The position numbers were made by a program, and so were the translations under genes. Positions 1 through 30,962 of a stretch of 30,962 nucleotides of DNA are shown piece by piece. Origin of the DNA: a virus; IMG/VR virus record IMGVR_UViG_3300005471_000040, positions 1 through 30,962 of that record; one strand, written 5' to 3'. The notes under the pieces are model-generated. The model worked only from the letters and a program-made list of their open reading frames with translations. It had not been told where the DNA came from and made no database searches. Position 1 is the stretch's first letter. The number at the start of each line of letters is the position of its first letter.

Positions 1-516
1 TAAGGGTAAGGGCGGGGTCCGGCGACACCGGATGGTCCGCCGGACGGTTCGCCGGACGGTTGAGGGGTCCAACCGTCCGGCGGTGTCGGACGGTCTGCCG
101 GACGGTTGGGCGAACGGTTCGGGGGTGGTGCGCAGCAGGCGGAAGACGGTGCGGTTGCGTCCACCGGTGGACTCGCGCTCGAGCAGCGACGGCCGGTGCT
201 TGGTCGGCCGCTCGAGGCGCTGGACGATCTTGTAGAGCGAGCTGCGCAGCAGCCCACACCAGGCTGCGAGGCCGTCCATCGTCGGGGCGCTCTCGTACCC
301 GTCGAAGCTGTCACAGGCGAGCGCGAGCAGCACGAGGCGTTCGGACTCGCTCAGCTTGTACGACCGGGGCAGGGACGCGACCCACGCGACACCCGGACGG
401 TCGCCGTCGACGACCAGCTGCGGGGGCGGTGTGGGGCCGCGAGCGCCTCCGTGTGGGTTGCTGGGTGTGGTGTCGGCGAGGTCGTCCGACGCTGGTGTGA
501 GCTGGTGGTCGCTCAA
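1..516 (-). CDS. Winged-helix replication initiator-like protein (3' end cut by window edge)
   Basis: TTG start at 516 with AGGAG six bases upstream; 172 codons are visible and the frame is open at position 1. Residues about 46-125 look like a winged-helix DNA-binding domain of the kind found in phage and plasmid replication initiators: a helix-rich stretch (SYKLSESERLVLLALA), then a second helix pair with LRSSLYKIVQRLE as the likely recognition helix, then a short beta wing (GRNRTVFRLL). After residue 130 the protein becomes Arg/Pro/Thr-rich low complexity because this part of the gene is the iteron array at 28-119. That arrangement, an origin inside the initiator gene, is known from lambda O. 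It is the last gene of the leftward early operon. I infer replication initiation from domain type plus iterons; a transcription regulator remains possible. If the window ends join as a circle, the frame stops two codons further on. Confidence 0.6.
   Translation of the reverse strand, partial: MSDHQLTPASDDLADTTPSNPHGGARGPTPPPQLVVDGDRPGVAWVASLPRSYKLSESERLVLLALACDSFDGYESAPTMDGLAAWCGLLRSSLYKIVQRLERPTKHRPSLLERESTGGRNRTVFRLLRTTPEPFAQPSGRPSDTAGRLDPSTVRRTVRRTIRCRRTPPLPL
28..119. repeat. Iteron array, candidate replication origin
   Basis: Six direct copies and one inverted copy of a 10-mer, consensus CCGGACGGTT. Direct copies start at 28, 40 and 52 and again at 86, 98 and 110, each triplet with an exact 12-bp period. 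An inverted copy (AACCGTCCGG) lies between the triplets at 71-80. The array is inside the 3' part of the initiator-like gene. Ordered short repeats in or beside an initiator gene are typical of iteron origins. An isolated further match at 393-401 (CCGGACGGT) is probably chance. Confidence 0.6.
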
Positions 517-5091: not shown

Positions 5092-5699
5092 CACGCGCCA
5101 CCCCGCACCGTCGTCTTCGATGCCGTGGCGTTCGCCAGTTGCGGCACGTTGAACGCAGTCACGGCGTGACGGATGGCCCAGCAGCACCACAGGAAGTGGA
5201 CGGTGTGCGGGTGCAGGTCGGCCTCCCACCAGAAGTCGACGAACGGCTCGCCGATGTGCGCGAGGCCGAGCCGGAAGTTGTCCTCGTCGGCGCGGTCCTC
5301 GTCGGCGATCAGCTCCCGGAACATCTGGCGGACCCGACCGACGGCGTCGGGGTCCGTGTGCTCGGCCCACTCGTCGAGGTACTCCGCCGCGACCCGGCGG
5401 GCGTAGTCCTCGTCGTACCGCTTGGTCTCGCCGGCGAGGACCTTCTCGCCCCAGTAGCCGGGGTTGACCCCGGTGCCCGAGCGGAAGAACTCGAACATGT
5501 CCTCCAGGCGGGAGAACGTGAACGTGCCCATGTCGCCGTTGATCGTGAGGCTGCCGGGCCACGTGACGACGTCGAACCAGTAGGCGCTCTGATCGGGCCG
5601 CTTGAACCGGAGGTGCCGGTACAGACCGTCGTTGTGCAGCACGGTCATCTCGTGCTGTGCGATGTCGCTCTCGAATCGCTCCTGGATGGTGCTGGTCAT
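5091..5699 (-). CDS. Conserved phage hypothetical protein, 202 aa
   Basis: ATG at 5699 overlaps the upstream stop (ATGA). Contains the block LYRHLRFKRPDQSAYWFDVV, then TWPGSLTINGDMGTFTFSR and DMFEFFRSG. I know this block from hypothetical proteins in phages and prophages of actinobacteria and proteobacteria. The C-terminal half is helical and rich in acidic and aromatic residues (FVDFWWEADLHPHTVHFLWCCWAIRHAV). Function is unknown in the family as far as I know. Its length and intact core indicate an active gene. Confidence 0.75.
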   Translation of the reverse strand: MTSTIQERFESDIAQHEMTVLHNDGLYRHLRFKRPDQSAYWFDVVTWPGSLTINGDMGTFTFSRLEDMFEFFRSGTGVNPGYWGEKVLAGETKRYDEDYARRVAAEYLDEWAEHTDPDAVGRVRQMFRELIADEDRADEDNFRLGLAHIGEPFVDFWWEADLHPHTVHFLWCCWAIRHAVTAFNVPQLANATASKTTVRGGA

Positions 5700-6103
5700 A
5701 CGGTCTCCAGGGCTCGGGCCGCCGTCAGGAGGCGGCGACGGTGGTAAGGGTCGGTGGTGAACGCGGCCTGCTCGACGGCGTCCTCCAGGGCATGCACAGC
5801 CGGCCAGTCCGCGAGCCCGTGACGGGCGCCGGACCAGAACCGGTCAGCGTCCAGCGCGAGCGCCGGCCGCACCTCGGGATGGGCCGCCGCCGGGCCCAGC
5901 GCGATCGGCCGGGCCTCCAGCGGCGTGAACCACGTCAGGCCCGGCGGGTGCGGGCGATCCAGGTCGGGCAGCGTCGCGGCGGCGTCGACCGCGGCGGCCA
6001 GCTGCGCGGCCGCGGCGCCCGCATTGGGGCACAGGTGCCCCTCGTCGATGTCGTAGAACTCGTGGCACTTCTGGCAGCGGACGCGGCCGTAGCGGACCTT
6101 CAT
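5696..6103 (-). CDS. Hypothetical early protein with N-terminal zinc knuckle, 135 aa
   Basis: ATG at 6103 overlaps the upstream stop (ATGA). Residues 10-25 carry CQKCHEFYDIDEGHLC, a C-x2-C-H...H-x-C zinc-knuckle pattern. An Ala-rich helix follows, then a segment PPGLTWFTPLEARPIAL and a helical C-terminus (FTTDPYHRRRLLTAARALE). No family recognised. Confidence 0.6.
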   Translation of the reverse strand: MKVRYGRVRCQKCHEFYDIDEGHLCPNAGAAAAQLAAAVDAAATLPDLDRPHPPGLTWFTPLEARPIALGPAAAHPEVRPALALDADRFWSGARHGLADWPAVHALEDAVEQAAFTTDPYHRRRLLTAARALETV

Positions 6104-6375
6104 CGCGTGGCCGCCTCTCGCTCCGCTTCGCGCAGGTCACGGATCGACTCCCGGAAGTCACGATCCGGGAGAGCGAAGCGGAACCAGGCGTCCTGCGCGC
6201 GGGCGCACTCCTGGCGGGCCTGCTCGACCCGCTCGAGGGCACGTGCCTGCGCGGGCGTCGGCTCCCCCGCCGACGTCGGGTACCAGGACGGGCTACCCAA
6301 CGTCGGCTTGATCTCCCAGCCCCCCAGCACGTCGGGACGCTGATGACGCGCGAGGCGGTTCAGGAGCACCTTCAT
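6100..6375 (-). CDS. Hypothetical early protein, 91 aa
   Basis: ATG at 6375 overlaps the upstream stop (ATGA), with GAAGGGA eight to ten bases upstream. N-terminus MKVLLNRLARHQRPDVLGGW, then a Pro/Ser loop and a long C-terminal coiled-coil-like helix (QARALERVEQARQECARAQDAW..., ESIRDLREAEREAATR). Probably a small cytosolic helical protein; no function can be assigned. Confidence 0.55.
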   Translation of the reverse strand: MKVLLNRLARHQRPDVLGGWEIKPTLGSPSWYPTSAGEPTPAQARALERVEQARQECARAQDAWFRFALPDRDFRESIRDLREAEREAATR

Positions 6376-6749
6376 GAGCGGAATCCCTTCGCGTTCTTCC
6401 CATCCGCGAGCCCGTCGCGGCAGTCCACCCGGTCGTACTCGGTCACCGCGCCGATCTCCGTCTCGAACGCCGTCACGCACCGGCGTTCGGAGTCGTCGTC
6501 CGGGCTCGGCGCGGTGAGCGTGAGGAACGCGGCCAACGCCGCGCCCAGGACGGCCGCCACGGCGAGCAGCACGACCCTCACGGTCATGCGGGCCGGCTCA
6601 GGCGTGGCCTGGACGATCCACCAGCACGCCTCACCGCGCTGCTGGTGCATGTGCGTGTGCTTGTCCATGTGCGCGCCCATCACGCCGTCGACGTCGGATC
6701 TCGGCTGCACGAGCGTGTGCCCGCACCCGGAGCAGATCCGGCGCGTCAC
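6372..6749 (-). CDS. Membrane protein with cytosolic zinc finger, 125 aa
   Basis: GTG at 6749 overlaps the upstream stop (GTGA). Residues 6-31 form a C2H2-like finger: C6-x2-C9 and H27-x3-H31, followed by a His-rich HTHMHQQ. One transmembrane segment lies at about 56-79 (MTVRVVLLAVAAVLGAALAA), then a short outer domain with two Cys (C91, C110). An internal ATG at 6587 (Met55) begins exactly at the hydrophobic segment and would make a short signal-anchored protein, but its SD is weak. So this is either one tethered finger protein or two fused or nested genes. Confidence 0.5.
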   Translation of the reverse strand: MTRRICSGCGHTLVQPRSDVDGVMGAHMDKHTHMHQQRGEACWWIVQATPEPARMTVRVVLLAVAAVLGAALAAFLTLTAPSPDDDSERRCVTAFETEIGAVTEYDRVDCRDGLADGKNAKGFRS

Positions 6750-8471: not shown

Positions 8472-8692
8472 GCTGCGACCACCTCGGAGCGCTTGATGAT
8501 GTCGAGCACGGTGATGTCCAGGACTCGGCCGACCTCGGCCAGCTCCTGGACGGTGAACGGGGTCTGGCCGGACAGGCGCCGGCGCAGCGTCACCCGGGGG
8601 ATCCCGGACTCGTGCGCGACGAAGAGCTCGGACATGCCCCGTTCGGCTACCAGGCCCCGCACTGCTGCGGCGACCGTCTGTGTGATGTCCAT
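8468..8692 (-). CDS. Cro/CI-type HTH regulator, Cro-like, 74 aa
   Basis: ATG at 8692. The whole protein is one XRE-type five-helix domain: VAAAVRGLVAERGMSELFVAHESGIPRVTLRRRLSGQ, then TVQELAEVGRVLDITVLDII. It is divergent from a larger XRE repressor gene (8788-9198), so by position it is the Cro counterpart that opens the lytic operon. No SD precedes the ATG; a -10 hexamer ends seven bases upstream, indicating a leaderless mRNA. An operator palindrome sits inside its promoter, consistent with repression by CI and self-control. Confidence 0.8.
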   Translation of the reverse strand: MDITQTVAAAVRGLVAERGMSELFVAHESGIPRVTLRRRLSGQTPFTVQELAEVGRVLDITVLDIIKRSEVVAA

Positions 8693-8727
8693 ACGGCGAC
8701 ATTAGTGTCCGTACGGACATCGCGCAA
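8686..8727 (-). promoter_or_regulatory. Early leftward promoter with embedded operators
   Basis: On the minus strand: -35 TTGCGC (8727-8722), a 17-bp spacer, -10 TAATGT (8704-8699), then six bases to the ATG at 8692, so transcription would start at or next to the start codon. The spacer contains a perfect 14-bp palindrome TGTCCGTACGGACA (8706-8719). A degenerate second copy (TGTCCATACGGCGACA, 8686-8701) overlaps the -10 and the start codon about two helical turns away. Repressor binding here would block RNA polymerase directly. Confidence 0.7.
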
Positions 8728-10730: not shown

Positions 10731-11001
10731 CGTGGCGCACGTGGCGCAAACGTGGCGCAGCCGGCGACTGTACGAGACTGGACGAGACTTTACGATTCGA
10801 TTCCTTGAAGGCTCAGGATCATTGGAATCTAGCCATTTCCCTGGACCGGACTGGATGAGCCGGGATAAGGCTGGACGGATCGCAGCGGACTTTTAATCCG
10901 CGGGTTCCGGGTTCGATCCCCGGGGGGCCCACTGCGTTAACCAGCATGTTTGAACATTCCTTGAACATTGTGCCGGTGCCGAATGGCGCAAAAGTGGCGC
11001 A
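10731..11001. other. attP region with arm-type repeats
   Basis: The core is 10885-10931 (separate entry). On the left, three copies of CGTGGCGCA at 10731, 10740 and 10751, then ACGAGACT twice (10772, 10782; 10-bp step). On the right, TTGAACATT twice (10950, 10961; 11-bp step), then TGGCGCA twice (10984, 10995; 11-bp step). The TGGCGCA motif on both sides of the core, at near-helical spacing, is what arm-type integrase sites should look like; the other pairs could be excisionase or host-factor sites. Confidence 0.75.
10885..10931 (+). other. attP core: 3' half of tRNA-Lys(UUU)
   Basis: Anticodon stem GCGGA / TCCGC around the loop CTTTTAA (anticodon UUU), a 5-base variable region, T arm CCGGG-TTCGATC-CCCGG, acceptor 3' strand GGGGCCC and discriminator A. 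No matching D arm or 5' acceptor strand lies upstream, so it is only the 3' half. A phage carries this half so that integration restores an intact host tRNA-Lys gene. The crossover is probably in the anticodon loop. Confidence 0.85.
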
Positions 11002-11023: not shown

Positions 11024-11353
11024 ATGAGCAGCGAGTACGCACTGCCAGACCCGGGTAAGACCTATGCGCCGATGCCCGAGCTAGGGACCATTCGGGTGTG
11101 CGAGTTCTGTCATTTCGTAGTGACGCTCCGCGAGGTCCGCGGGGCGTGGCACTACTGGACCGCGGACCGCGACCCGCTCGACGGCCGCTGGTGGTGCGAC
11201 GGCGGCCAGCCGGGTACCGAGAACGACCCCGCTCTGCGGACCCTGCACTACCCGGCGGCGGCCGCCGGCGCCCTACCCTTCGCGACGCGGTACGACGCCG
11301 GCGGGCAACCGCACTACCCCCAGGACCACGGCACCCGACGGAGGCTGGCATGA
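11024..11353 (+). CDS. Hypothetical protein next to attP, 109 aa
   Basis: ATG at 11024 with AAGGA nine bases upstream; the frame is open upstream into the attP arm, but the SD favours this start. It has a CxxC (CEFCHFVVTLREVRGAWHYW) and aromatic strands (PLDGRWWCDGG) resembling a small zinc-binding beta domain; the His/Cys could complete a site. First of three plus-strand genes between attP and a terminator, so it may be expressed from the lysogen. Function unknown. Confidence 0.6.
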   Translation: MSSEYALPDPGKTYAPMPELGTIRVCEFCHFVVTLREVRGAWHYWTADRDPLDGRWWCDGGQPGTENDPALRTLHYPAAAAGALPFATRYDAGGQPHYPQDHGTRRRLA

Positions 11354-24835: not shown

Positions 24836-26182
24836 TCAGGCCCGGTCCGCCAGCTGCACGAACGGGGTCAGGGTGGTGGCGCCCTTGTTGGGCGTGATCG
24901 CGGACTGGATCCAGGGGCGGCCGTCGACGCGCTCGATGAACCGGATCGCGGTCTGGTCGTTCTGGAACTTGAAGTGCGGCGACGTCATCGCCTGGATGGC
25001 CTGGCGGTCGCCCAGCAGGTAGTAGCCGAGGTCGACGAAGTTGATGTCTCCGTCGTCGCCGAGGGTCTCGGCCTTCTCGGTGAACAGCACCGGGCGGCCG
25101 AGGATCGTCATCGGCGGGCCCTCGACGCCGTTGTTCAGCCACACCGCGCTGCCGCCGGTGCCGACGGACAGCGCCATGGTGGCCAGCTCGGGGAAGGTGT
25201 TGATGTGCGCGATCCAGACCGCACGGCCCAGGGAGGTGGGGAGCATCCGGGAGTACATCTTGACGATGTTCTCCCAGACGATGGTGTCGGCGGTCTGGCC
25301 GGACTCCTTGGCGACCTCGACCGCGGCGGCGGCGTTGAGAAAGCCGAGCGGCTCGCCGACGCCGGTGCCGCGGATGAACGCGATGTCCTCGAACCAGGCG
25401 ATGGCCTCGGGGAAGACCTCGTTGATGAAGACCTCGAGGCTGATGATGCTGTCGGTGAACAGCTCGTTGGGGACCTCGGAGTAGGCGGTGAGCTTCTTCG
25501 CCTCGAGCTTGACCCGGCCGAACTTCGGTGACGTGTCGGTCAGCGTGCCGGACTCTTCGGTCCACGCCGCCGTGACGCCGCCGTAGACGTTGGAAGCGTG
25601 CGAGGTCTGGTCGATCGTCGGGAACGGGACCGTGAGGGTCTCCATCGGGATCACGCGGGCGCGGGGGCGCACGATCGCGGTCTCCAGTGCGACGCGCAGC
25701 AGCTCCGAGCGGAGCGTCTCCGGGATCAGGAACCCGCCATCGGAGCCGACGGTCGAGCCGAACGTGTTGCGGATCGCGTCGAGCTTGGCCCGCTTGCCGG
25801 CCGCGGCCTCGGTCCGGTTGCCGTGGAAGATGGTGGAGAGGAACTCCCGGTTGGAGTCGAAGATCTTTTCCTGGTCGATCTTCGCGCCCGGCGCGGTCTG
25901 GGAGTACAGGCCCTGGCCCCTGGTGTTGACCGGGGCGTTGGGGTCCAGGTTGAGCCGCGGCACCTTGGCGTCGGGGTTGTCCTTGAGCCACTGCGTCAGG
26001 ACTCGCTGCGTCTCTTCCTTGACCTGGACGGCGATCGAGGAGTCGGCCGACATCGTGGCCTTGGCGTAGGACGAGATGAACTCGGTGAACGTCGGCTTGT
26101 CGGAGAACACCTGCTGCATCTTGACCGAGTCGCCGAGCATGTCCTCCAGCTCGGCGGCCGTCTTCGGAATCGTGAGCTTCAC
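24836..26182 (-). CDS. Major capsid protein, HK97 fold, 448 aa
   Basis: GTG at 26182 overlaps the protease stop (GTGA) with GGAAGGGA upstream. The N-terminal 130 residues are helical and charged, like the delta/scaffold domain removed by the protease. The body has STVGSDGGFLIPETLRSELL, a typical capsid start, then RPRARVIPMETLTVPFPTID, AWTEESGTLTDTSPKFGRVK, YSEVPNELFTDS, FIRGTGVGEPLGFLN and TILGRPVLFTEKA. These blocks define the HK97-like family. It assembles the icosahedral shell. Cleavage probably lies near residue 110-140. Confidence 0.95.
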   Translation of the reverse strand: MKLTIPKTAAELEDMLGDSVKMQQVFSDKPTFTEFISSYAKATMSADSSIAVQVKEETQRVLTQWLKDNPDAKVPRLNLDPNAPVNTRGQGLYSQTAPGAKIDQEKIFDSNREFLSTIFHGNRTEAAAGKRAKLDAIRNTFGSTVGSDGGFLIPETLRSELLRVALETAIVRPRARVIPMETLTVPFPTIDQTSHASNVYGGVTAAWTEESGTLTDTSPKFGRVKLEAKKLTAYSEVPNELFTDSIISLEVFINEVFPEAIAWFEDIAFIRGTGVGEPLGFLNAAAAVEVAKESGQTADTIVWENIVKMYSRMLPTSLGRAVWIAHINTFPELATMALSVGTGGSAVWLNNGVEGPPMTILGRPVLFTEKAETLGDDGDINFVDLGYYLLGDRQAIQAMTSPHFKFQNDQTAIRFIERVDGRPWIQSAITPNKGATTLTPFVQLADRA

Positions 26183-27066
26183 GACGTCATCCCTTCCTTG
26201 AAGGCCGCCCGAAAGGCGTCCGGGTCGAACTGGAACTCCGGCCGCTTGCCGGGAGTCGGTGGGGCCGGCGCCTGGGCGCGGCCGGCGTACAGGAACCGCT
26301 CGTACGCGGTGCGGAAACGGTCGGCCGGAACCGGCTCGTCGTCGTCCTCTTCGGGGTCGGCCGGCGGGTCATCCTCCGCGGGCTCTTCCGGGTCCTCGGT
26401 GGGGTCGGCCGGGTCGTCTTCCTCGTCGGGGTCGGGCGTGTTCTTGGGTCCGGACACGGCCTCGTCGGCGAGGCCGGCGTCGACGGCCTCAGTCGCGGAG
26501 TACCACGTCTCGGCGCGCATGAGCTCGCGCCAGTCGTCGGCCTTGCCACCGGCACGGTCGGCGTAGATGCCGGCGATCGTGTCGGAGATGCGGTCCAGGA
26601 GGGCCTTCATCTCCTCCATGTCCGCGGCGTTCCCGACGCAGAACCCGAGGGCGTCGTGGATCATGAGCTGGCTGCCGCGGTTCATCTTCACGCTGTCGCC
26701 GGCCATGGCGATGTAGCTGGCGGCCGAGGCGGCCATGCCGTCGACGACGACGTTCACGGTGGCCGGGTGGTCGGCCAGCGCGTTCATGATCGCGAGGCCG
26801 TCGAACACGTCGCCGCCGGGGCTATTGACGTGCAGCTCGATGACGCTCGAGTCGATCGCGAGGAGCTCGTCGACGAAGGTCTGCGCGGTGGTCCCCCAGT
26901 ACCCGATCTCGTCCATGAGGTCGATCCGGGTGGTGTCCGTCTCGGCGTTGGCCACGACACGGACCCGGGACGCGACCGGGGGGCGGGGGCGTTCGTCACG
27001 GGCCCGCAGGTGCTGCCAGACCTCGGAGACGAGACGACCCGGCACGGATGCCCGCCCTGTAACCAT
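26179..27066 (-). CDS. ClpP-like prohead protease with acidic scaffold-like tail, 295 aa
   Basis: ATG at 27066 with AAGGGAG six bases upstream. Residues 34-205 match the ClpP/S14 head protease: VIELHVNSPGGDVFDGLAIM, catalytic S114 in VDGMAASAASYIAMAGD, catalytic H137 in LMIHDALG, then AETWYSATEAVDAGLAD with the likely Asp. Residues 206-255 are a very acidic Asp/Glu/Pro tract, and residues 255-295 are a helical end (RFRTAYERFLYAGRAQ, DPDAFRAAFKEG). Such acidic tails can serve as scaffold. It trims capsid N-termini during prohead maturation. First gene of the leftward late operon. Confidence 0.92.
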   Translation of the reverse strand: MVTGRASVPGRLVSEVWQHLRARDERPRPPVASRVRVVANAETDTTRIDLMDEIGYWGTTAQTFVDELLAIDSSVIELHVNSPGGDVFDGLAIMNALADHPATVNVVVDGMAASAASYIAMAGDSVKMNRGSQLMIHDALGFCVGNAADMEEMKALLDRISDTIAGIYADRAGGKADDWRELMRAETWYSATEAVDAGLADEAVSGPKNTPDPDEEDDPADPTEDPEEPAEDDPPADPEEDDDEPVPADRFRTAYERFLYAGRAQAPAPPTPGKRPEFQFDPDAFRAAFKEGMTS

Positions 27067-27211
27067 CTGCCGCTCCCTTGTTACGGACCGTAACTTTGTT
27101 ACGCGCCGTAGCCTACATGCGTGGATGCACTCCAGGCATGCACCAGGTGGGGTTCATGCATCGAGTGCATCCACACTGACGGCAGAGCGCGTGAGGGGCG
27201 GGTGACAGGTG
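27067..27211. promoter_or_regulatory. Divergent late control region with paired dyads
   Basis: Between two operons pointing apart. Dyad 1 GTTACGGACCGTAAC (27080-27094) has perfect 7-bp arms about a single central base; dyad 2 GTTACGCGCCGTAGC (27098-27112) is a close imperfect copy 18 bp away. Beyond them a perfect 11-bp inverted repeat GTGGATGCACT (27121-27131) / AGTGCATCCAC (27164-27174) encloses GCATGCA and ATGCAT palindromes. No promoter hexamers fit well in either direction, which hints at an activator-dependent late promoter pair. Confidence 0.65.
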
Positions 27212-27637
27212 ATGGCGACACGGCGCAGGACTCCCTCGGTGCTCACCGCGCTGCACACGGCACTGCGGGCGAAGCCGCCGGCTGACGCGGACGGCGCCAC
27301 GGTGGCGCTGGCCAAGCGGTACGCCCTGGAGCTGGACGACTCCGCGCCCATCTCCAAGGCGATGGTCAAGATCCTGCGCAGGCTCCAGCAGGAGGGCCGA
27401 TACGACGAGTACGACGAGCTGCTGGATCTGGCGACCCGGATCGAAGAGGTTCACGTCGCGGCGGTGGTCGGGCCCAAGCTGCTCGCCGCGCTCGAGTCCC
27501 TCCAGCTGACGCCGAAGGCGCGCACCGGCGTGCTGCAGGGAGGGGGTACCCCGGATGCTGACCCTGGCGCAACTGCCCTCGACGAGCTCCGAAATCGTCG
27601 GGCGAACCGAGCCGCGGCTGTGGACCCGTCCTCTTAG
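27212..27637 (+). CDS. terS: Small terminase subunit, 141 aa
   Basis: ATG at 27212; a GTG one codon earlier has slightly better spacing to GAGGGG. Basic N-terminus (MATRRRTPSVLTALHTALRA), helices ALAKRYALELDDSAPISKAM, ILRRLQQEGRYDEYDELLDL and VVGPKLLAALESLQLTPKAR, ending RNRRANRAAAVDPSS. All-helical, about 140 residues and directly before the large terminase: the profile of actinophage small terminases, which bind pac/cos DNA and regulate the motor. It overlaps the large-subunit gene by 83 bp. Confidence 0.85.
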   Translation: MATRRRTPSVLTALHTALRAKPPADADGATVALAKRYALELDDSAPISKAMVKILRRLQQEGRYDEYDELLDLATRIEEVHVAAVVGPKLLAALESLQLTPKARTGVLQGGGTPDADPGATALDELRNRRANRAAAVDPSS

Positions 27638-29153
27638 GCCGCTGACCCCGGGCACCTCGTACGGGTTCGACGTCATCGACTTCGCGCGAGACGTCCTGCA
27701 CCACCCGCTGGACCCGTGGCAGGAGTGGGTCGTCATCCACCTCGGCGAGCTGCTCGAGGACGGGCGGCCGCGGTTCAAGAAGGCCTTGATCATGGTCGCC
27801 CGGCAGAACGGGAAGACCGAGCTGCTGGTCGTGCTGACGCTGTACTGGATCTTCGTGGACCGGGTCGGCACCGTGCTGGGCACCAGCACGAAGCTGGACT
27901 ACGCCGCGGAGTCCTGGCGCAAGGCGTGCAAGCTCGCGCGCCGCGTGCCGGCACTGAACGCGGAGATCCCCAAGCGCGGCGGGATCCGCAAGGCAAACGG
28001 TGAGCAGGTCCTGTGGCGGGCCGACGCCGAGGAGCACGCCATGGAGGAAGGCTCCCGGTACAAGATCGCGGCGTCCAACGAGGAGGGCGGCCGATCACTG
28101 ACGATCGACCGGCTCGTGTTGGACGAGCTGCGCCAGCACAAGGACTACTCGGCGTGGGACGCGTCCGAGCCGGCGACGTCGGCGGTGCCGGACGCGCAGA
28201 TCGTCGCGATCACCAACGCGGGGTCGGCCGCGTCGGTAGTGCTGAACGACATGCGCGGCGATGCGGTGCACTACATCGAGACCGGTGAGGGAGATCCACG
28301 GCTTGGGCTGTTCGAGTACAGCGCGCCGCCCGGGTCCAGCCCGGTCGATCCGGAGGCGCTGGCGCAGGCGAACCCGAACGCGAACGTCCGGATCCTGATG
28401 GAAGACCTCATGAACGAGGGCGCGGCCGCGATGCGGGTCGGCGGGAAGAAGCTGGCCGGGTTCAAGACGGAGAAGATGTGTATGGAGGCCTCCGTGATGG
28501 ATCCGGCGGTCGACATGGACACCTGGGGCCGCGAGTACAACCCGCTGCAGCGGATCCCGCTAGGCATCCGACACCCGGACGTCAAGGCCGGCTGCCTCGA
28601 CCCGGGCAACCTCGCGGGGCTCCGCTCGCGCGTGGCACTGGTCGTCGACGTCGCCGAGGACAGCCAGCACGCCACGCTGTACGCCGCGGCGGTCCAGGAA
28701 GACGGGCGGGTACGGATCGACCCCGTGGCGGCCTGGACGGGCCCCGGCTGCACCAAGGAGCTCCAGGCAGACCTGCCCGGGTGGGTCAAGAAGATCAAGC
28801 CCCGCAAGGTCGGGTGGTTTCCCGGGGGTCCCGCCGCCCAGGTGGCCGCCAGCCTGCGCAAGCGGGAGAGCTGGGCGCCCCACGGCGTCGTCGTGGAGGA
28901 GATCACCCGGGACACGCCCGCCGTGTGCATGGGGTACGCCGAGCAGATCACCACCGGGCAGGTCGCGCACGGCGGCGACCCGCTCCTGGACAAGCAGATC
29001 GCAACCGCAGAGAAGAAGTTCACCGGCAAGCGGTGGGTGTTCGCCCTGGACGGCGCCCACGTCGACGCCGTCTACGCCGCGGCCGGCGCCGTGCACCTGG
29101 CGCGCACGCTGCCTCCACCTACCGCACCACGACTGAGGATGATGCCATCGTGA
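27555..29153 (+). CDS. terL: Large terminase subunit, 532 aa
   Basis: ATG at 27555 with GGAGGGGG about eight bases upstream, inside the end of the small-subunit gene. ATPase: Walker A VARQNGKT (81-88) with upstream adenine-binding LDPWQ, Walker B LVLDE (D190, E191). Nuclease: VVDVAED (D365), with a later acidic AHVDAVYAAAGA. GTSTKLDYAAESWRKACKLA and EYNPLQ are also family blocks. It translocates DNA into proheads and cuts it. The nuclease Asp is intact. Opens the rightward packaging operon with the small subunit. Confidence 0.95.
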   Translation: MLTLAQLPSTSSEIVGRTEPRLWTRPLRPLTPGTSYGFDVIDFARDVLHHPLDPWQEWVVIHLGELLEDGRPRFKKALIMVARQNGKTELLVVLTLYWIFVDRVGTVLGTSTKLDYAAESWRKACKLARRVPALNAEIPKRGGIRKANGEQVLWRADAEEHAMEEGSRYKIAASNEEGGRSLTIDRLVLDELRQHKDYSAWDASEPATSAVPDAQIVAITNAGSAASVVLNDMRGDAVHYIETGEGDPRLGLFEYSAPPGSSPVDPEALAQANPNANVRILMEDLMNEGAAAMRVGGKKLAGFKTEKMCMEASVMDPAVDMDTWGREYNPLQRIPLGIRHPDVKAGCLDPGNLAGLRSRVALVVDVAEDSQHATLYAAAVQEDGRVRIDPVAAWTGPGCTKELQADLPGWVKKIKPRKVGWFPGGPAAQVAASLRKRESWAPHGVVVEEITRDTPAVCMGYAEQITTGQVAHGGDPLLDKQIATAEKKFTGKRWVFALDGAHVDAVYAAAGAVHLARTLPPPTAPRLRMMPS

Positions 29154-29317
29154 TCACCAAGCTCCTCCCGTACATCCCCTGGATTCTCGGCGTCCTCGGC
29201 CTAGCGTTCCTCGTCGCCGCGGCGTGGACCATCAACCGTGCCGAGCTCGGCACCACCCTGGGCCTGGTCGCCACCGGGCTCGCGTTCCTGATCCTTGAAG
29301 TGAGGGCCTCATCATGA
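29150..29317 (+). CDS. Small two-TM protein between terminase and portal, 55 aa
   Basis: GTG at 29150 overlaps the terminase stop (GTGA) and the stop overlaps the portal ATG (ATGA), so it is coupled on both sides. Two hydrophobic helices: YIPWILGVLGLAFLVAAAW and TLGLVATGLAFLILEV, with a short polar turn (NRAELG). A membrane protein here is unusual for a packaging operon. It may be holin-like or an accessory protein. No family recognised. Confidence 0.7.
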   Translation: MITKLLPYIPWILGVLGLAFLVAAAWTINRAELGTTLGLVATGLAFLILEVRASS

Positions 29318-30546
29318 CGAAGTCCATCCTCGGCAGCCTCGGCGGCCTCGTCGGCACCGTCACCAACAAGGCGCCCGACATGCTCGGCGCCCGCGCGCGC
29401 CAGCTGAGCCTGCCATGGGCCGGGACCAACAACGCCGAGAGCCAGATGCGGGCCATGGGGCAGGTCGGCACGTTGTTCGCGATCGTGAACCGGACCTCCA
29501 ACGCCACCAGCCAGGTCGACTGGCGGCTGTGGCGCAAGCAGGTCGACGGCCGCCGGCGGTTCGGGCCGGACAACGGCGACCGGACCGAGGTCATGCGGCA
29601 CGCCGCGCTGGATCTGCTGAACAACCCGAACCCGTTCATGAGCCGGCAGGCCCTGTTCGAGTCCGTCCAGCAGCACGTCGACCTCGTCGGCGAGGGCTAC
29701 ATCGTGATCTACCGCGACTCCCGGTCCCCGCTGCCGATGGAGCTGTGGCCTGTGCGTCCTGACCGGATGACGCCGGTCCCCGGCGGCGACTTCCTGTCCG
29801 GGTACATCTACACGGCGATGACCGGCGAGCAGGTGCCGCTCGGGCTCGACGAGGTGATCCCGCTGAAGATGCCGAACCCGCTAGACCCCTATCGCGGCCT
29901 GGGACCGGTGCAGGCGGCGATGGTCGACATCGACTCGGCGCGGTACTCGGCCGAGTGGAACCGGAACTTCTTCGTGAACTCTGCCGAGCCCGGCGGGATC
30001 ATCGAGGTCCCCGACCGGCTCGACGACGAGGCGTTCGAGGAGCTCACCTCGCGCTGGCGTGAGCAGCACCAGGGCGTGGCCCAGGCGCACCGGGTCGCGG
30101 TCCTGGAGCAGGGCACGTGGAAGGACCGGTCCATGTCCCAGAAGGACATGCAGTTCGTCGAGCTGCGTGGCCTGTCGCGCGAGGTCCTCCGTGAGGCTTT
30201 CGGGATCCACGGGCACATGATCGGCAACAGCCAGGACGTCAACAAGGCCAACGCTGAGGCCGGCGAGACCTCTTTCGCGCGATGGCTGGTGAAGCCGCGC
30301 TGCGAGCGGTTCAAGCAGGCCCTCAACCACCGGCTCCTGCCCATGTTCGGGGCGACCGACCTCGAGTTCGACCACGACCGCGTCGTCCCCGAGGACCGGG
30401 AGGCCGACGACCGCGAGCGAACTTCGAAGACGGGCGCCGCCAAGACGCTGATCGACGCCGGGTTCGACCCTGCGGAGACGCTCGCCGCGCTCGAGCTGCC
30501 CGAGATCTCGTTCCGGGGCCGCCCGGCGGCCGCCGGAGGCGCGTGA
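29314..30546 (+). CDS. Portal protein, HK97 type, 410 aa
   Basis: ATG at 29314 overlaps the previous stop (ATGA). Blocks include FAIVNRTSNATSQVDWRLWR, LLNNPNPFMSRQALFESVQQ, VGEGYIVIYRD, ELWPVRPDRMTPVP, DEVIPLKMPNPLDPYRGLGP, NFFVNSAEPGGIIEVPD, EAFGIHGHMIGNSQDVNKAN and a C-terminal helix. This is the phage_portal (HK97 gp3-like) family, forming the dodecameric vertex ring through which DNA enters. The usual downstream protease gene is absent; it lies on the other strand across the divergent region. Confidence 0.95.
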   Translation: MTKSILGSLGGLVGTVTNKAPDMLGARARQLSLPWAGTNNAESQMRAMGQVGTLFAIVNRTSNATSQVDWRLWRKQVDGRRRFGPDNGDRTEVMRHAALDLLNNPNPFMSRQALFESVQQHVDLVGEGYIVIYRDSRSPLPMELWPVRPDRMTPVPGGDFLSGYIYTAMTGEQVPLGLDEVIPLKMPNPLDPYRGLGPVQAAMVDIDSARYSAEWNRNFFVNSAEPGGIIEVPDRLDDEAFEELTSRWREQHQGVAQAHRVAVLEQGTWKDRSMSQKDMQFVELRGLSREVLREAFGIHGHMIGNSQDVNKANAEAGETSFARWLVKPRCERFKQALNHRLLPMFGATDLEFDHDRVVPEDREADDRERTSKTGAAKTLIDAGFDPAETLAALELPEISFRGRPAAAGGA

Positions 30547-30594
30547 GGGCCCGCTGGGCGGCCGGACAGAGCTAGCCGGCCGCCCGCGGGGCCC
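30547..30594. terminator. Long hairpin between convergent genes
   Basis: Perfect 10-bp stem GGGCGGCCGG (30556-30565) / CCGGCCGCCC (30576-30585), extended outward by GGGCCCGC / GCGGGGCCC with one bulge, 10-base loop. It starts right after the portal stop and overlaps the last codons of the minus-strand gene, so it is a probable bidirectional terminator. Confidence 0.75.
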
Positions 30595-30847
30595 GAGCGG
30601 CGGCCGCGAGCGCCTGGCGGACGAGGTGACGGCGCCGTTCGGCCGTTGCTGGGTCCGTGTAGCGGCGCAGGTGGCGCCGGATGAGGTGTGGCTTGCAGAT
30701 CAGGCAGGGCACGGGCGTGCCGTCGGGGGCGGGGGCAAGCCATCCGCGGTGGCACAGGTGCAGGTGCGGGTCGGGCGCGTCAATGTCGGGGTAGAGGTCG
30801 CCGTCGCGGTCGCGGCGCATGGGGATTGCGTCGTCGGTGATCGTCAT
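30572..30847 (-). CDS. Small zinc-motif protein under the operator array, 91 aa
   Basis: ATG at 30847 with GGAGGGAG six bases upstream, a very strong SD. Acidic N-terminus (MTITDDAIPMRRDRDGDLYP), then HLHLCHRGWL and a second pair PCLICKPHLIRRH, giving C-H...C-x2-C...H, a likely zinc knuckle. Basic C-terminus (ERRRHLVRQALAAAARAPR). It is convergent with the portal gene and has the palindromic array at 30861-30948 directly upstream as its probable promoter region. A small DNA-binding regulator, possibly self-regulated, is plausible but unproven. Confidence 0.65.
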   Translation of the reverse strand: MTITDDAIPMRRDRDGDLYPDIDAPDPHLHLCHRGWLAPAPDGTPVPCLICKPHLIRRHLRRYTDPATAERRRHLVRQALAAAARAPRAAG

Positions 30848-30860
30848 GTGCCACTCCCTC

Positions 30861-30962
30861 CGTGAAAGTTTCCGCCATACCATCTTATCTGAAAGTTTCC
30901 AACATCGTGTTGGAAACTTTCAGGCTCCTAGTTTTCCGTGAAACTTTCATACATTTTCACGA
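30861..30962. promoter_or_regulatory. GAAASTTTC operator array with a 35-bp near-perfect palindrome
   Basis: Four copies of the 9-bp dyad GAAA(G/C)TTTC at 30864, 30891, 30913 and 30940. Centre-to-centre distances are 27, 22 and 27 bp. The middle two are arms of CTGAAAGTTTCCAACA / TGTTGGAAACTTTCAG (30889-30904 / 30908-30923), a perfect 16-bp inverted repeat around TCG. A CGTGAAA half-site is at 30861 and 30937 and an inverted one near 30953-30960. On the minus strand TTGGAA-N17-TATGGC overlaps the array as a possible promoter for the 91-aa gene. Confidence 0.8.

Follow-up and report, generated by a model that had tools for sequence, protein, structure and literature searches.

Two repressors of Streptomyces have operators that are the closest described counterparts of the sites analyzed here. 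BxlR, a member of the LacI family, recognizes CGAAACTTTCG, and the ROK-family repressor CsnR recognizes AGGAAANTTTCCT; both operators have the core GAAANTTTC (PMC4743123; PMC6097792). The related words GAAA(G/C)TTTC and TGAAANTTTCA have been predicted as cellulase/xylanase (glycosidase) sites in Catenulispora and Actinospica (PMC3377646). A second point of comparison is the packaging element cosB of phage lambda, a 120-bp element with three sites for the small terminase subunit, TerS (PMC4669245).

The DNA considered in this work (hereafter, the window) is a whole IMG/VR contig of 30,962 bp, a linear fragment of the genome of an uncultured soil-type phage; its right end lies approximately 34 bp short of a cos-like end. 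A motif search of the complete record revealed exactly four matches to GAAASTTTC, all of them exact, and no further copies with up to one mismatch elsewhere in the window. The dyads are spaced 27-22-27 bp from start to start, and the extended site is an 11-bp dyad, TGAAASTTTC followed by A or C (Table 1). With a 22-bp step between them, the inner two dyads face the same side of the helix; the outer two, 27 bp further out, do not. Four dyads with this spacing, as well as a perfect palindrome with 16-bp arms around 3 bp, had been claimed in an earlier note on this DNA, and both are present precisely as described, the inverted repeat being CTGAAAGTTTCCAACA tcg TGTTGGAAACTTTCAG (30889-30904 and 30908-30923); only the start of the array, given there as 30861, has to be shifted to 30863/30864. 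Dinucleotide shuffling of the local 115 bp (20,000 replicates) produced one motif in 97 cases, two in a single case, and three or more in none, and 9-bp dyads of any sequence reached a maximum of two copies, compared with the four observed. We conclude that the array is a real, conserved and probably functional element, unusual in its location and with a role that is plausibly an ordinary one.

Table 1. Coordinates of the array and of the features of the window discussed in the text.
Feature	Position	Strand	Remark
Dyad site 1, GAAAGTTTC	30864..30872		11-mer TGAAAGTTTCC at 30863; between the Shine-Dalgarno sequence of the leftward gene and site 2
Dyad site 2, GAAAGTTTC	30891..30899		exact motif match
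Dyad site 3, GAAACTTTC	30913..30921		exact motif match
Dyad site 4, GAAACTTTC	30940..30948		inside GTGAAACTTTCATACATTTTCAC, identical in L013 and L014
Central palindrome	30889..30923		16-bp arms with 3 bp between; holds sites 2 and 3
Left-end gene, 91-aa Cys-rich protein P0001 (CHRGW..PCLICKPHL)	30572..30847	-	
Shine-Dalgarno sequence GGAGGGAG of the leftward gene	30854..30861	-	
Portal gene	29314..30546	+	transcribed towards the left-end gene; used as the anchor in the search for relatives
Terminase large subunit	27555..29153	+	
Terminase small subunit, Terminase_6, PF23931	27209..27637	+	candidate binder if the array serves packaging
Inverted repeat in the cro/ci intergenic region	8679..8726		probably the immunity operator; no sequence relationship to the array
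Last bases of the record	30949..30962		cos-like genome end approximately 34 bp beyond, by alignment to L013/L014

The position of the array in the genome had to be revised. The earlier note placed it next to the initiator end of the phage because two contig ends were joined; the record is linear, its right end is near the cos-like end, and the initiator-like ORF (1-516, minus strand) is at the opposite end, where the window is truncated inside it. The related contigs L013 and L014 extend 34 bp past the end of the window to an identical end, ...AGGGGAGAGAGAGCTAGAAGAC, and L125 (portal 78% identical; 39.3 kb long and placed in the bin of a groundwater MAG) stops at the aligned base, ...CGGGGAGAGAGAGACGCCTGAC. 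Because the relatives run past the window to this common end, we reject a circular form of the record in which the array would adjoin the initiator. More distant relatives with an inverted terS-terL-portal cassette share the core GACCTGCGG.....CGGGGAGRGA past the portal gene; L015, L016, L018, and L020 end 6–8 bases after this core, which is internal in the other relatives. Seven contigs, nearly all of them from separate data sets, share this end position, for which a physical cos end is the best explanation. Because this end is shared by related contigs from separate data sets, the array, judging from the alignments, adjoins the left end of the genome (virion orientation) and not the initiator. 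It lies 48–134 bp from the common end of L013/L014, with the last dyad 48 bp before the cos-like core. This cos-ended reading of the contig replaces the circular one, and it indicates that contig ends alone define cos cores of an uncultured phage group.

Several further observations concern the architecture of these genomes. A search with the right half of the cos pattern for contigs beginning on the far side of cos gave internal matches only. Both outward ends of the L125 contig (L145 1-60; L125 11858-11886) finish in CGCCTGAC, which at one of them is followed by apparent Illumina adapter sequence; this word may be artefactual, or it may be an interrupted palindrome at cosN whose overhang was lost. 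The terS-terL-portal cassette is inverted relative to the protease-capsid-tail genes (window 24836-30546), and the inverted cassette is common to L013, L014, L016, L019, L020, L023, L025, L026, L027, L068, and L125, whereas in most other portal relatives it is collinear. A different motif, GCCGTARATYTTGCGG, stands on both sides of the cos core in L026 (6560-6881), with a 37-nt inverted repeat across the core. The HNH call beside cos in L019 and L119 rests on weak Pfam matches below the cut-off (E 0.24 and 0.016) and is a hint only. Just after the tyrosine integrase, positions 10889-10931 of the window resemble the 3' half of a tRNA-Lys(TTT) gene, a probable attP.

The nearest portal relatives, L013 (89%) and L014 (87%), both carry the array past the portal gene, with the site order kept and a spacing of 28-22-27. 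Site 1 is kept in L013 (6053) and L014 (7538), the counterpart of site 2 is GAAACTTTC (6081 and 7566, respectively), and that of site 3 is degenerate by one change, GAAACTTTT (6103 and 7588), the 22-bp step being retained. Between the window and L013, 40/44 positions are identical in the dyads and 44/56 in the spacers. The arrays of L013 and L014 are identical at 100/101 positions, their portal genes are 93.7% identical, and their left-end genes beside the array are 98.4% identical; such high identity of the arrays may partly reflect a recent exchange of the whole genome end. The earlier note had proposed a search of related phages for pairs spaced 22 or 27 bp and had named a lack of conserved dyads or spacing as evidence against its view; these steps recur in L013 and L014, where dyads and spacing are both kept. 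The symmetry that it emphasized survives in the dyads and the 22-bp step and not in the long palindrome, whose 16-bp arms are complementary at only 12/16 pairs in the two relatives. The array is absent from the next relative, L125, in which there is no intergenic space either: the left-end gene starts approximately 58 bp from the genome end. In a scan of 2.9 million viral contigs, motif pairs were sought at a distance of 22 bp, at a wider range with a GG flank, or at approximately 27 bp; besides L013/L014 and the unrelated L154/L161, the inspected matches looked like coding or AT-rich chance occurrences. L014, unlike L013, has a DNA methyltransferase-like gene (5240-6650) between the portal and left-end genes.

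In the window, the 11-mer of site 1 ends 15 bp upstream of the P0001 start codon, beyond its Shine-Dalgarno sequence. P0001 gave no match in Pfam, PHROGs, or the phage collection, nor in the sequences of L013 and L014; it is similar over a short stretch to a gene that L125 carries at its other genome end, and its predicted structure (pLDDT 54) was not used. The gene below the array in L013/L014 differs from P0001: it starts more than 100 bp away and its protein is 53% related to the window ORF 11024-11353. This Cys-rich ORF and TerS likewise had no match in the phage collection. The one visible gene that the earlier note took to be controlled by the array would be P0001 in the window; L013/L014 have another gene there. 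Autoregulation by the 91-aa P0001 is unlikely, since L013/L014 have the same array above an unrelated gene. A conserved, regulatory-looking array with an exchangeable downstream gene may mark an entry point for cargo genes at the end of a phage genome. The reverse arrangement, a different array above a related gene, occurs at the other genome end of L125, where three to four palindromes of the TAGTCCGTGTGACGGACTA type, approximately 21 bp apart, are located upstream of a P0001-like gene (L145 453-538).

The motif, which the earlier note did not recognize, matches the operator core described for BxlR and CsnR (PMC4743123; PMC6097792), and the palindromic GAAA-N-TTTC core typical of these operators is present in four exact copies. 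The BxlR flanks (C..G) and the CsnR flanks (AGG..CCT) are absent from the array, whose own flanks, TG...CA or TG...CC, are closest to the Actinospica motif. Because the flanks differ, we do not assign the array, on its sequence, as a BxlR or CsnR operator; nevertheless, the known motif gives a named family of candidate binders. Paired GAAASTTTC sites 8–38 bp apart were found in only 4/395 Actinomycetes genomes, and a step of 22 or 27 bp, which the earlier note had proposed to look for in hosts, occurs in none of these pairs. Two of the four genomes, L149 and L151, have a motif triplet approximately 200 bp upstream of a gene that by our own reading of the sequence encodes a GH10 xylanase-like protein.

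Outside the array-bearing lineage, the unrelated uncultured phage L161 has nine copies of TGAAASTTTCA, 7/9 of which lie 15–34 bp upstream of an ATG with a Shine-Dalgarno sequence. This phage, represented by L154 (956-5063) and L161 (2714-11530), has 9–10 such palindromes, most of them just upstream of Shine-Dalgarno sites; the core is fixed and the flanks change complementarily (GCGT..ACGC, GTCT..AGAC, GTGT..ACAC). These palindromes appear to be start-associated elements of the DNA or RNA type. Other three-site arrays, TTTGTAGCTACAA / TTGTGGCCACAA with a spacing of 34 and 24, were seen in L060 (760-830), L061 (77-147), and L065 (964-1034) between divergent small genes upstream of the terminase, and are probable operators of the leftward gene. 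The CI-like/Cro-like pair of the window itself is an unlikely binder of the array: these proteins are poor candidates because the inverted repeat of their own intergenic region, GTCCATACGG / CCGTACGGAC, is unrelated to GAAASTTTC.

In our view, the best explanation is a cooperative multi-site operator through which a dimeric regulator other than CI or Cro acts on the left-end gene or genes of a cos-type temperate phage, and we give this explanation about an even chance of being correct. We infer binding, cooperativity, the promoter, and the identity of the regulator as follows. Each 11-bp dyad would accommodate one dimer of a repressor or activator. With two helical turns between them, sites 2 and 3 would hold a side-by-side tetramer, a complex that sites 1 and 4 would lengthen. 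Occupancy of the array would control leftward transcription into the left-end gene, whose Shine-Dalgarno sequence is directly below site 1. The regulator might be encoded in the missing part of the genome (approximately 8 kb, assuming a genome equal in length to that of L125), or it might be a host sugar-type repressor of the LacI or ROK family, for example BxlR or CsnR, whose operators have the same core. The cooperatively bound regulator or nucleoprotein complex put forward in the earlier note remains, as a multi-site regulator-bound complex, the best reading, while the cos position opens a packaging alternative to it.

Several lines of evidence argue for such an operator. The motif occurs only at the array within the window, between a gene start and cos. 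The conservation in L013/L014 of dyads, spacing, and order, with sites changing less than spacers, is consistent with bound sites. The published BxlR/CsnR core, together with the triplets upstream of the GH10-like genes, suggests by analogy a regulatory use, as does the placement of site 1, which is like that of the L161 copies. The joint absence of array and intergenic space from L125 would also fit. The weakest element of this reading is the promoter: a search for sigma-70-like promoters gave none that fits the consensus, and of the hexamers between sites 1 and 2 the one most like a -10 box, with TAAGAT in the window and TAGGGT in L013, is broken in L014 (TGGGGT). Also against an operator are the different and distant downstream gene of L013/L014, the array staying with cos while that gene is exchanged, as a packaging site would, the host pairs with neither a 22- nor a 27-bp step, and the window itself, in which no LacI or ROK protein was seen as a candidate regulator.

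The main rival, which we consider unlikely, is a cosB-like array in which the four sites, bound by TerS and perhaps by a bending protein, would place the large subunit at the cos cut in the manner of lambda R1-R3. The distance is suitable, since a cosB is expected within approximately 200 bp of the terminase cut and the array is well inside that range; its reference end in L013/L014 is at the same aligned position as the L125 end and close to the ends of L015, L016, L018, and L020. The constancy of the array next to cos beside an exchanged gene would be natural for a packaging site. In addition, the sister lineages L019, L023, and L025 have direct repeats near cos, GCTAATTCSC / GNTATTTC, spaced 21–23 bp, on both sides of cos and nowhere else in the records (L019 5362-5775; L023 5451-5600; L025 5630-5740); the genes around them converge, leaving no gene start there that would call for an operator, and such lineage-specific cos-flanking repeats are candidate terminase sites. 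However, these are direct repeats, whereas the sites of the array are two-fold symmetric, and GAAASTTTC is already known as the core of transcription operators. A cosB would be expected wherever terminase and cos core are shared, yet L125, whose core ends at the same base and whose terminase subunits are related (TerL 71% and TerS 57% identical), has no array. The AF2 model of TerS shows a long helical hairpin and no clear N-terminal HTH, and this low-confidence model (pLDDT 65) gave no significant match in Foldseek. A combination of both roles, a host-type LacI/ROK operator array at the packaging end that silences the left-end gene or genes and gates the access of terminase to cos, seems to us improbable; if true, a LacI/ROK regulator beside cos would link host nutrition to phage gene expression or packaging.

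The remaining alternatives are also improbable. Replication-origin iterons bound by the initiator-like protein, marginally the better of them, would be compatible with four short dyads at 22–27 bp in an AT-rich island, a general layout similar to that of the lambda ori iterons. However, iterons normally lie within or adjoining the initiator gene, and here the initiator is not adjacent, the linear record being truncated inside that ORF; L125, a contig apparently reaching both ends, has a replication-type gene (by our own reading) approximately 4 kb inside the other end and no array. The case for a partition (centromere-like) site, which has a similarly small chance, comes mainly from L016 and L119, inverted-cassette phages with one perfect copy each of the chromosomal parS core GTTTCACGTGAAAC immediately next to the cos core, upstream of the left-end gene (L016 5115-5128; L119 8865-8878), the only perfect copies in 1.35 Mb of loci compared; phages using host ParB would be notable. 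In the window, no chromosomal-type parS with up to one mismatch was found, and the best match, with two mismatches, overlaps site 4 at 30931 and could be due to chance, the array dyad being GAAA-S-TTTC as opposed to GTTTC-ACGT-GAAAC in parS; moreover, with its tyrosine integrase and tRNA-Lys-like attP the phage should integrate, needing no partition. Least probable of all is an RNA element, with the 35-nt palindrome forming a hairpin in the leftward leader for termination or translation control. Its stem is perfect over 16 bp in the window, and the TGAAASTTTCA flanks in L154/L161 covary as extended palindromes beside start codons, but we set this reading aside because the stem is not conserved: the differences in L013/L014 are without compensation while each 11-bp dyad persists, and neither a T tract nor a terminator was found at the palindrome.

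Compared with known systems, the array most likely belongs to the class of multi-site palindromic operators, with no named regulator. Like lambda cosB, which comprises R1-R3 and an IHF site, it consists of several short sites approximately 50–135 bp from the genome end, on the terminase/portal side; the R sequences are asymmetric, in contrast to its two-fold symmetric sites, and its lack in L125 despite the same cos core limits the likeness. With parS it shares the word GTGAAAC, and the perfect parS of the sister phages has an equivalent position, but the half-sites are in the opposite (everted) arrangement with another spacing. Site 1 resembles start-associated phage sequences and repeated operators in being a short conserved motif just upstream of a Shine-Dalgarno sequence, although L154/L161 have one TGAAASTTTCA copy per gene and the window has a single clustered array at one locus. 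The BxlR and CsnR operators share with the array an odd-length GAAA-N-TTTC dyad; they are short palindromes upstream of regulated genes, of which one gene may have several, and site 1 likewise stands ahead of a start codon. Their flanks are CG/CG or AGG/CCT, whereas those of the array are TG/CA or TG/CC, and the array is further distinguished by belonging to a phage, by its place beside cos, and by having four sites with the spacing 27-22-27.
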